DNA of 64,000 bases, from the NCBI RefSeq assembly GCF_014396585.1, contig NZ_CP060717.1, forward strand, positions 806,001 through 870,000. The letters run 5' to 3'. The stretch comes from Sphingomonas rhizophila. Its GTDB lineage: Bacteria; Pseudomonadota; Alphaproteobacteria; Sphingomonadales; Sphingomonadaceae. Position 1 is the stretch's first letter, and the number at the start of each line of letters is the position of its first letter. Below are positions 17,422 through 19,703 of the stretch, in pieces. The translations under genes and the position numbers were made by a program. The notes under the pieces are model-generated. The model was not told where the DNA came from. It did no database searches and saw only the letters and a list, made by a program, of their open reading frames with translations.

Positions 17422-17498
17422 CCCCCCGCGATACGCACGAATGCTTAATCATTCGTATGCGGGAGGAAACTATCCGAAGGTGGTCACGTTCAAACCCG

Positions 17499-18191
17499 AT
17501 GCTCACAGTTGCAGACGACAAAGACCATCCGCTCGCCGATAACTTCGTTAAATTTATCTCGGCTAAAGATTTCCCCTGTGTCGGCGCCAAGGCGGCGCTC
17601 AACCGCGGTGGCATGCACTTCGTCGTTGCGCGCGATTTTCGGTCGGCGTGGGATGATCTCAGGATTCTCCCGACGCTGCTCGAAATCGCCCGCGACTATC
17701 GCGCAGATCCGGAACCTTTCCGCTCGCTCGTCGTGCTGTTCCAGAACGGCGCGCCGAAGGATGAGGCCAGCTTTGAGGCCGGACTTTGGGAACGGCTGCA
17801 ATCGCTTTCCGACAAAGACGACTGGCTTGGCCAGCTGCCGGACCCGCGGGTCTCGCACGATCCCGATGATCCGCATTTCGCCGTCAGTTTCGGAGGTGAG
17901 GGATTTTTCATCGTCGGCCTCCACCCACGGTCGAGCCGCCCTGCGCGCCGTTTTGCGATGCCTGCGCTCGTGTTTAATCTCCACGACCAGTTCGAGCGGT
18001 TGCGGGAGGAGGGGCGCTACCAGGCGCTGCGGGAGGCGATCATCGCCCGCGACGTCGCCATGGCGGGGACAGCGAACCCGATGCTGGCCCAGCACGGCAG
18101 CGTTTCGGCCGCACGGCAGTATAGTGGCCGGGCAGTAGGCGCCGACTGGCAATGCCCGTTCAGCCGAAAGTCGACCAGCCGTGCCGCATGA
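17499..18191 (+). CDS. GntA/YqcI-YcgG family protein, putative heme-dependent N-hydroxylase
   Basis: About 230 aa protein of the YqcI/YcgG family, which includes the guanitoxin enzyme GntA and belongs to the heme-dependent oxidase group that N-hydroxylates guanidine-type and related nitrogen compounds. Visible: FPCVGAKAALNRGGMHFVV near the N-terminus, the conserved FFIVGLHPRSSRPARRF block whose His is the expected heme ligand, and a C-terminal ARQYSGRAV followed by DWQCPF. Start taken at ATG 17499; ATG 17457 is a possible longer start. Its stop overlaps the next start by 11 bp. The substrate is unknown; function is by family only. Confidence 0.75.
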   Translation: MLTVADDKDHPLADNFVKFISAKDFPCVGAKAALNRGGMHFVVARDFRSAWDDLRILPTLLEIARDYRADPEPFRSLVVLFQNGAPKDEASFEAGLWERLQSLSDKDDWLGQLPDPRVSHDPDDPHFAVSFGGEGFFIVGLHPRSSRPARRFAMPALVFNLHDQFERLREEGRYQALREAIIARDVAMAGTANPMLAQHGSVSAARQYSGRAVGADWQCPFSRKSTSRAA

Positions 18192-18762
18192 AATCGCGCC
18201 CCGCTCGGGGGTCGCCTTCACCATCGACAAGGGCCAGACGCTCACCGTGATCGATCCGCGCGGTGAACAGGTCGCCGATCTTCTCGCCTTCAATCGTGAC
18301 GACATCGGCGAGGTCATTTCGTCGGGGCGCACGCTGGATTACGCCAGCCGCATTTATCTTACGACCGGAGACCCGCTCTATTCCAACCGGTCCAATGTCA
18401 TGCTGACGATCGTGGAAGACGACGTGGGTCGCCATGATTTCCTGCTGACTCCCTGCTCGAAAGATACCTTCCGCATCATCTACGGCGATACCGATCCGCA
18501 TCGCGGCTGTTTCGGCAATCTTGCCGAGGCGCTAGCGCCGCATGGCGTGACACCGGACATGATCCCGATCGCCTTCAACGTCTTCATGAATGTGCCGATC
18601 GACGGGACAACCGGCGAACTCAAGGTCGAGCCGCCGCTAAGCAAAGCGGGTGATCGTCTGGTGCTCCGCGCCGAAATGGACCTAATCATCGGCCTGACCG
18701 CCTGCTCCGCGCTGCAATCGAACAACGGTTCATTCAAGCCGATCCACTGGATGGTGGAATGA
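18181..18762 (+). CDS. DUF1989 (urea carboxylase-associated / carboxyguanidine deiminase-like) protein
   Basis: 193 aa. It has the DUF1989 fold signatures GQTLTVIDPRGEQVADLLAFN, SSGRTLDYASRIYL, and the likely metal-binding segment LLTPCSKDTF followed by DPHRGCFGNL, then PIAFNVFMNVPIDG. DUF1989 proteins were long linked to urea carboxylase and some (CgdA/CgdB) are subunits of carboxyguanidine deiminase. No carboxylase gene is nearby, so a different substrate is likely. GTG start at 18181 overlaps the upstream hydroxylase; ATGA overlap with the following ATP-grasp gene. Translational coupling implies the three act together. Confidence 0.82.
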   Translation: MPHEIAPRSGVAFTIDKGQTLTVIDPRGEQVADLLAFNRDDIGEVISSGRTLDYASRIYLTTGDPLYSNRSNVMLTIVEDDVGRHDFLLTPCSKDTFRIIYGDTDPHRGCFGNLAEALAPHGVTPDMIPIAFNVFMNVPIDGTTGELKVEPPLSKAGDRLVLRAEMDLIIGLTACSALQSNNGSFKPIHWMVE

Positions 18763-19703
18763 CGTCGGTTTCGCCGGCGCTAACGGTGCCGGCGCAGGCC
18801 CGAACCGGATTGCCCCTTGCGATCAGGTCGGCGCGGGTCGCGCTCACCTATTTCTGGCGGCATCGGCGCTGGCCATCCCTCAGCGGGCCTCGGTTGTTCA
18901 CTGAGTGGGTCCAGTGGAGAAAGCTCCACGACCGGCGGGACGGCCTCGCCCGCCTGACCGACAAGCTGAAGTCGAAGTTGATCGCTTCATCAGCTTTGGG
19001 ACCCGCGATGGTCGTCCCGACACTGTGGAGCGGGAAGGAATTGCCGTCGGTGCCGCCAGGGCCGTATCCCCTGATGGTCAAGGCCAATCATGGGTGCGGC
19101 CATCATGTCGTTGTCCGAAGCGATGCCGACTGGCAACGAGCCCGGCGGCGATCCCGGGATTGGATGCGCGTCAGCTACGGGGCGTGGCTCGATGAATGGC
19201 ATTATGGCGCCGCGCGGCGGCTTTTGATCGTCGAACCGATGCTCGGGGAAGGCGGCGGGTTGCCCGTCGACTTCAAAATTTACGTCCTGGGAGGACGCGC
19301 GGTGATCGTTCAGGTCCACGAGGGGCGCGGCGGCAATCACCGCTGGGCGCAGATGGACCTGGACTGGCGGCCGCTGTCGCGCCGGACGACGTCAGTCGTG
19401 CGCCCCGCCAGCCTCGAGGCGATGATCGACGCTGCGGAGCGATTGTCGAGCGGCCATGACATGCTCCGGGTCGATTTCTACGAGATCGCCGGCCAGCCGC
19501 TGTTCGGTGAATTCTGCCTCTTCCCCGGATCAGGCCTCGACCCCTTCGATCCGCCGGAACTCGACGATTGGCTCGGGATGCTGTGGACCGAAGCCCGTGG
19601 CTTATCCGGAATTGCGGAGCGCGGTTGCGATGGCGTTGATGGACAGCTGGATCCCGTCGCGGACGCGATGATCGGTTTCGCCGCTCCGATGCCGCTTCAG
19701 TAA
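18759..19703 (+). CDS. TupA-like ATP-grasp ligase
   Basis: 314 aa protein resembling teichuronopeptide-biosynthesis (TupA-like) ATP-grasp enzymes: MVKANHGCGHHVVVRSDAD is the ATP-binding lid region, RLLIVEPMLGEGGGLPVDFKIYVLGG carries the PxDFKxYxF-type signature, and DMLRVDFYEIAGQPLFGEFC holds the metal-binding D and E residues. The family joins a carboxylate to an amine, often adding amino acids to polysaccharides or peptides. ATGA overlap with the DUF1989 gene. The last 30 or so residues are antisense to the end of ppc and look unlike the family; the true stop may be earlier (lost stop or indel). Confidence 0.75.
   Translation: MTSVSPALTVPAQARTGLPLAIRSARVALTYFWRHRRWPSLSGPRLFTEWVQWRKLHDRRDGLARLTDKLKSKLIASSALGPAMVVPTLWSGKELPSVPPGPYPLMVKANHGCGHHVVVRSDADWQRARRRSRDWMRVSYGAWLDEWHYGAARRLLIVEPMLGEGGGLPVDFKIYVLGGRAVIVQVHEGRGGNHRWAQMDLDWRPLSRRTTSVVRPASLEAMIDAAERLSSGHDMLRVDFYEIAGQPLFGEFCLFPGSGLDPFDPPELDDWLGMLWTEARGLSGIAERGCDGVDGQLDPVADAMIGFAAPMPLQ

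Follow-up and report, generated by a model that had tools for sequence, protein, structure and literature searches.

A conserved gntA–DUF1989 gene pair in Sphingomonas rhizophila and other prokaryotes that may act in N-hydroxylation and C-N cleavage of guanidine-type compounds

Three overlapping genes in the genome of Sphingomonas rhizophila raise the question of whether they form one pathway, and if so, which of them belong to it and what it might do. They lie in a 64,000-nucleotide stretch of DNA (bases 806001-870000 of the contig), analysed as a whole and referred to here as the window:

17499..18191, plus strand: GntA-type YqcI/YcgG gene (gntA); start ATG 17499, with an alternative ATG 17457 upstream
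18181..18762, plus strand: DUF1989 gene; GTG start, 11-bp overlap with gntA
18759..19703, plus strand: TupA-like ATP-grasp gene; ATG start, ATGA overlap with the DUF1989 gene

The open reading frame coordinates agree with the overlaps described in the initial annotation of this locus, and such overlaps make translational coupling likely. The three families, PF08892, PF09347 and PF14305, are each represented by one copy in the 2.56-Mb single-contig genome. Of seven proteins scanned at the locus, those encoded closest to the three genes are an epimerase, a divergently encoded CAP-domain protein and a convergently encoded PEP carboxylase; a urea carboxylase or transporter does not adjoin the three genes, as had been noted at the outset. 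The last 102 bp of the TupA frame (19602-19703) overlap the 3' end of the PEP carboxylase gene, and the TupA C-terminus looks extended, since in relatives most TupA matches stop at around residues 276-294 of 314.

The assignment of the first protein to an N-hydroxylase family held up: it scores 183 bits against PF08892 (curated cut-off 27) and 243 bits against NCBIfam NF041366 (cut-off 145), and is predicted from its sequence to be a heme-thiolate N-oxygenase. The initial annotation had expected a histidine as heme ligand. This has to be revised, as the ligand in the family is a cysteine, Cys44 in the argolaphos N-hydroxylase AglA (PMC12866846) and Cys47 in ChmN. The aligned residue, Cys27 (numbered from ATG 17499), is invariant in 59 of 59 sequences and is the predicted heme ligand of the window protein. 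AglA (PDB 9ub3) further shares with it a pair of Phe residues that contact the substrate in AglA and the heme-propionate Arg: Arg166 and Phe182 align with invariant Arg150 and Phe165, and Phe152 aligns with Phe137, which is kept in at least 90% of the sequences. Nevertheless, the profile match between AglA and the window family reaches only E 2e-5, and Gln177 and Arg179, which contact the guanidine and backbone of the AglA substrate, correspond to Asn160 and His162, both invariant, suggesting that substrate recognition differs. In the part of the AglA cluster table that was accessible, no DUF1989 gene was seen. Six YqcI/YcgG enzymes are said to have been characterised by late 2025, in natural-product pathways (PMC12866846). 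The known ones hydroxylate arginine-type guanidines. The closest relatives that we found for gntA are from Sphingomonadales. While the window protein passes the NF041366 cut-off for GntA of guanitoxin biosynthesis, its partner is a DUF1989 protein, and no guanitoxin biosynthesis gene stands beside it, its neighbours being the DUF1989, TupA, CAP-domain, epimerase and PEP carboxylase genes. 'GntA/guanitoxin' is a family label, and the automatic annotation as 'guanitoxin biosynthesis GntA' is probably misleading.

The second protein matches PF09347 with 202 bits and carries DUF1989 as its only domain in the Pfam scan, without GcvT. Profile, fold and a Cys3 metal site formed by Cys92, Cys110 and Cys175 all place it in this family, and it is predicted to be a metalloenzyme. 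The originally proposed kinship with carboxyguanidine deiminase-type proteins is borne out, in that UAAP2 has the same three metal cysteines, while UAAP1 lacks them. Identity with either subunit can be dismissed, both scores falling well short of the TIGR03424 and TIGR03425 cut-offs, with 123 bits where 285 are required and 85 where 206 are, and so can a two-subunit enzyme of this kind: the window protein is encoded by a single gene, a second DUF1989 protein is absent from the genome and the carboxylase gene is not adjacent. The DUF1989 domain of TMAO demethylase likewise aligns its zinc-binding cysteines and a histidine with the window protein, but that enzyme also has a GcvT domain. It is not the same protein, as the match to NF053776 amounts to 77 bits against a cut-off of 1100 and is confined to the DUF1989 region. 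The matches listed for the DUF1989 model include no chains of TMAO demethylase, although a sequence search finds them; a literature search on the mechanism of this enzyme gave nothing relevant.

If the genes belong together, they should recur together, a test that the initial annotation itself had proposed, and this is what we find for the first two. Of 61 genomes of the genus, 19 contain PF08892 and 20 contain PF09347, and all 19 are among the 20 (Fisher test, p 7e-15, ignoring relatedness; a gntA gene with two matches and one stop in G004 and a DUF1989 gene with one stop in G041 were taken as present). In the extra genome, G027, TupA comes after a DUF1989 gene that is truncated where the contig ends. 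At 19 extended loci from 18 genomes of the genus, not counting the window, the DUF1989 gene directly follows gntA in 15 and lies within about 3 kb in the other four. A set of 80 loci from named genomes, which includes three duplicates of genus genomes (L041, L042, L044), shows direct succession in 62, a nearby DUF1989 gene in five and none nearby in 13. All 13 genomes of the last kind encode a DUF1989 protein elsewhere, with 60-83% identity to that of the window in 12 of them; in the remaining one, G590, the best-scoring copies are 29-35% identical and a further copy 76%. In two of these genomes (G589, G591) the distant DUF1989 gene adjoins a second gntA copy. The neighbours of the unlinked Sphingopyxis DUF1989 genes gave no clear functional hint.

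The pairing extends well beyond the genus. Among genomes drawn more widely, PF08892 occurs in 16 of 299 of the phylum and 8 of 240 of the class. They yielded 19 loci with a match to the window GntA, and at 18 of these a DUF1989 gene directly follows gntA, a count that excludes three loci of a deep YqcI/YcgG clade with no match to the window GntA (L121, L122, L128) and one (L129) from the same place as L127. An unpaired second gntA copy occurs in G436 (L158). PF09347 was also present in 20 of 20 further genomes of these draws, surveyed only where they had PF08892, including two (G093, G222) that contain only the other YqcI/YcgG clade. The distance matrices of GntA and DUF1989 proteins correlate with r 0.81 over 63 pairs, a value reached by none of 2000 permutations, although shared species history inflates both this correlation and the Fisher value. 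On a 66-row tree, the label paired or unpaired needs five changes, compared to 20 with shuffled labels, where split loci of the genus were labelled as paired and Sphingopyxis as unpaired, though some of the latter have a DUF1989 gene within 7 kb. The control genome of Bacillus subtilis contains both PF08892 and PF09347, in genes (ycgG and ycgI) that we take to lie close together on its chromosome; literature searches added nothing on this point.

On plasmids the same arrangement is found. The window gntA matches 19 plasmid records, and in 12 of the 15 that were opened, which leave out H5, H8 and two Pseudoalteromonas records with 27% identity, the DUF1989 gene lies directly downstream. These paired loci come from Novosphingobium, Sphingomonas, Skermanella, Sphingobium, Comamonadaceae, Comamonas, Deinococcus, Chryseobacterium and Hymenobacter, so that adjacency spans both alpha- and betaproteobacteria as well as Deinococcus and Bacteroidota; the Hymenobacter match to DUF1989 comes in two pieces. 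H5 and H8 have the two genes adjacent by coordinates, and in the stretches opened from two Streptomyces and one Rahnella record no DUF1989 gene was seen beside gntA. Searching from the other side, DUF1989 matches 458 plasmid records, of which the best 14 (52-72% identity) all adjoin gntA, the next match being at 40%. The order is reversed on plasmids of Halomarina BND7, Halomarina PSR21 and Halorussus limi, where the DUF1989 gene is followed by a YqcI/YcgG gene whose product belongs to a deeply separated clade. No such pair was found within 3.5 kb on plasmids of Halocatena, Haladaptatus, Natrinema and Salinigranum, and on one of Halalkalicoccus a DUF1989 gene lies near a gene annotated as agmatinase, without YqcI/YcgG. 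Taken over all these genomes, gntA and the DUF1989 gene form a conserved unit that recurs across phyla and is more than a chance adjacency.

The third gene behaves differently. TupA is a sound family member (70 bits against PF14305, curated cut-off 25), and its gene comes immediately after the pair both in the window and at L028, L035, L037, L038, L039, L045, L049 and L088, and follows DUF1989 in L198, as it does in G027. Within the genus, this amounts to six of the 19 genomes with gntA, the window counted, and the arrangement is limited to some Sphingomonadales loci. PF14305 occurs in 23 of the 61 genomes of the genus, namely in 9 of 20 with the module and 14 of 41 without it (p 0.57). TupA is thus a recurrent but optional neighbour of the pair. 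Of the original proposal that the three genes act as one system, the part concerning gntA and DUF1989 stands, while the trio as a conserved unit does not, most pairs being without TupA and PF14305 not being enriched in genomes with the module. With TupA optional, the suggested attachment to an envelope polymer is left unsupported, and a three-step pathway, in which TupA would ligate the N-hydroxylated product to a carboxylate or such a polymer, is improbable despite the ATGA coupling in the window and the recurrences just listed.

What, then, could the pair do? The recurrence of the two genes as a pair, in many bacteria and also in some archaea, suggests a shared two-step reaction, and we propose, with a probability of roughly one half, that they encode a two-enzyme module for guanidine-type N-hydroxylation followed by metal-dependent C-N cleavage. 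Judging from family biochemistry and the kept residues, the thiolate-heme GntA protein would N-hydroxylate a small compound of the guanidine type, for which arginine or a relative is the most likely candidate, with a housekeeping reductase as the presumed electron donor. The single-gene Cys3-metal DUF1989 protein would then break a C-N bond of the compound that GntA has N-hydroxylated, just as other DUF1989 enzymes cleave carboxyguanidine and TMAO. The outcome would be hydroxylamine, a hydroxylated compound of the urea type, or else an amine together with a carbonyl compound. We infer substrate, order and product of this relay.

In its logic, such a relay would resemble D-cycloserine biosynthesis, where DcsB is reportedly the hydroxyarginase that acts after DcsA. 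The hydrolase of that pathway is of the arginase type and not a DUF1989 protein. DcsA is a YqcI/YcgG heme protein like the window GntA (PMC8976061, PMC10849742). The relay consists of this heme protein and a hydrolase that splits the N-hydroxyguanidine; unlike the window genes, the system sits in an antibiotic cluster, and its partner protein differs from DUF1989.

The same genes can be read as a route for oxidative N-dealkylation, in which GntA forms an N-hydroxyl or N-oxide and DUF1989, in the manner of TMAO demethylase, breaks it down into an aldehyde plus an amine or guanidine that is shorter than before, salvaging alkylated nitrogen compounds. TMAO demethylase, with its DUF1989 domain, does act on an N-oxide, and an oxygenase-then-lyase route for methylguanidine has been published, in the available part of which we found no mention of a DUF family. 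However, the known YqcI/YcgG reaction takes place at a guanidine N-H and the window DUF1989 protein has no GcvT domain, so that we regard this route as doubtful. Somewhat less likely again is that the two enzymes work in parallel or in the reverse order, with DUF1989 making or trimming a substrate that GntA then oxidises in a small natural-product pathway. The reversed gene order in haloarchaea and the biosynthetic clusters in which the characterised YqcI/YcgG enzymes act would fit such an arrangement, but by eye no further biosynthetic gene was recognised among the recurrent neighbours.

DUF1989 is seldom named as such in the literature searched, and we found no report linking it with YqcI/YcgG in the full texts covered by our search, most subscription papers lying outside them, so that the pairing may be noted elsewhere; 'urea carboxylase-associated' together with 'N-hydroxylase' gave no match in the same kind of full-text search. 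Finding the two genes so tightly paired, in archaea as well as in several phyla of bacteria, provides each family with a partner and with a product that can be tested directly. It also suggests a role for guanidine N-oxidation outside antibiotics, perhaps in stress.

Of the other YqcI/YcgG clade, 10 of 49 records were opened: neighbouring genes encode a LysE exporter in three, an amino-acid permease in three and an Lrp regulator in two, which suggests that the family acts on amino acids. In Rahnella and in one Streptomyces, gntA likewise has a LysE gene nearby. In L188, on a Priestia plasmid, the YqcI/YcgG and LysE exporter genes are followed by genes for an MFS transporter, an ornithine carbamoyltransferase and an ATP-grasp protein. 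An amino-acid permease gene follows the YqcI/YcgG gene in L190, L191 and L194, with a cupin gene in between and an Lrp regulator upstream in L190 and L194. Haloarchaeal genes in L185, L186 and L187 stand beside sulfotransferase and adenylyl-sulfate kinase genes, for which sulfation of an N-hydroxyl group is a possible explanation, and in L128 (G222:C1:415193-415819) the domain lies inside an 8199-codon open frame, perhaps a giant peptide synthetase.

A possible link to stress lies in the region upstream of gntA, where we noticed a candidate promoter:

17465..17490, plus strand: candidate EcfG-type general-stress promoter, GGAAA-N17-CGTT, one mismatch to GGAAC-N16-17-CGTT

We take GGAAC-N16-17-CGTT to be the EcfG promoter consensus and GGAAC-N15-18-GTT to be EcfG-like. 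The window site itself is weak, as it begins 34 bp before ATG 17499 and the message would be almost leaderless. An inverted repeat, ACGAATG-6-CATTCGT, at 17437-17456 lies just before it, within the 77 bp that separate the divergent CAP-domain gene from ATG 17499, and may be an operator. Across loci, in 280-bp stretches that begin 250 bp upstream of the assumed gntA start and end 30 bp downstream of it, GGAAC-N15-18-GTT occurs at 25 of 86 non-redundant loci, compared to 27 of 1720 equally long random stretches and 5 of 159 stretches at other recurrent neighbouring frames; the remaining 61 gntA loci lack it. The stricter GGAAC-N16-17-CGTT is found at 11 of 86 loci and in 4 of 1720 random stretches. 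Judged by these motifs, the pair is probably part of the general stress response in some alphaproteobacteria. EcfG control of the unlinked copies was considered and dropped, the motif being present at none of 12 DUF1989 genes and one of 14 gntA genes. A still bolder scenario, widespread stress-induced guanidine N-oxidation and cleavage that releases NO, HNO or hydroxylamine, as a NOS-independent counterpart to nitric-oxide synthase in bacteria and haloarchaea, strikes us as a long shot.

Clustering of the neighbouring frames at 96 loci (without L041, L042 and L044) yielded no third core partner, the clusters otherwise reflecting mostly lineage-bound synteny, and no arginine or guanidine genes were recognised among the 70 recurrent clusters listed, whose representatives were judged by eye from their first 50 residues. 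A Crp/Fnr-type regulator gene, the family assignment of which was checked on L079:909-1652, lies directly upstream of and divergent from gntA at 25 of the 96 loci (9 of 42 non-redundant ones). In Methylobacterium (L093, L107), a histidine-methyltransferase-like gene (Methyltransf_33, checked on L093) is located downstream of gntA, and on a Sphingomonas insulae plasmid a cytidine-deaminase-family gene (L132:6370-6864) follows the pair with a 4-bp overlap. In L024 and L029, the pair is split by two membrane-protein-like genes; Ku-like proteins are encoded nearby in both and a ferritin-like protein in L029, all recognised by eye, which fits a stress neighbourhood.
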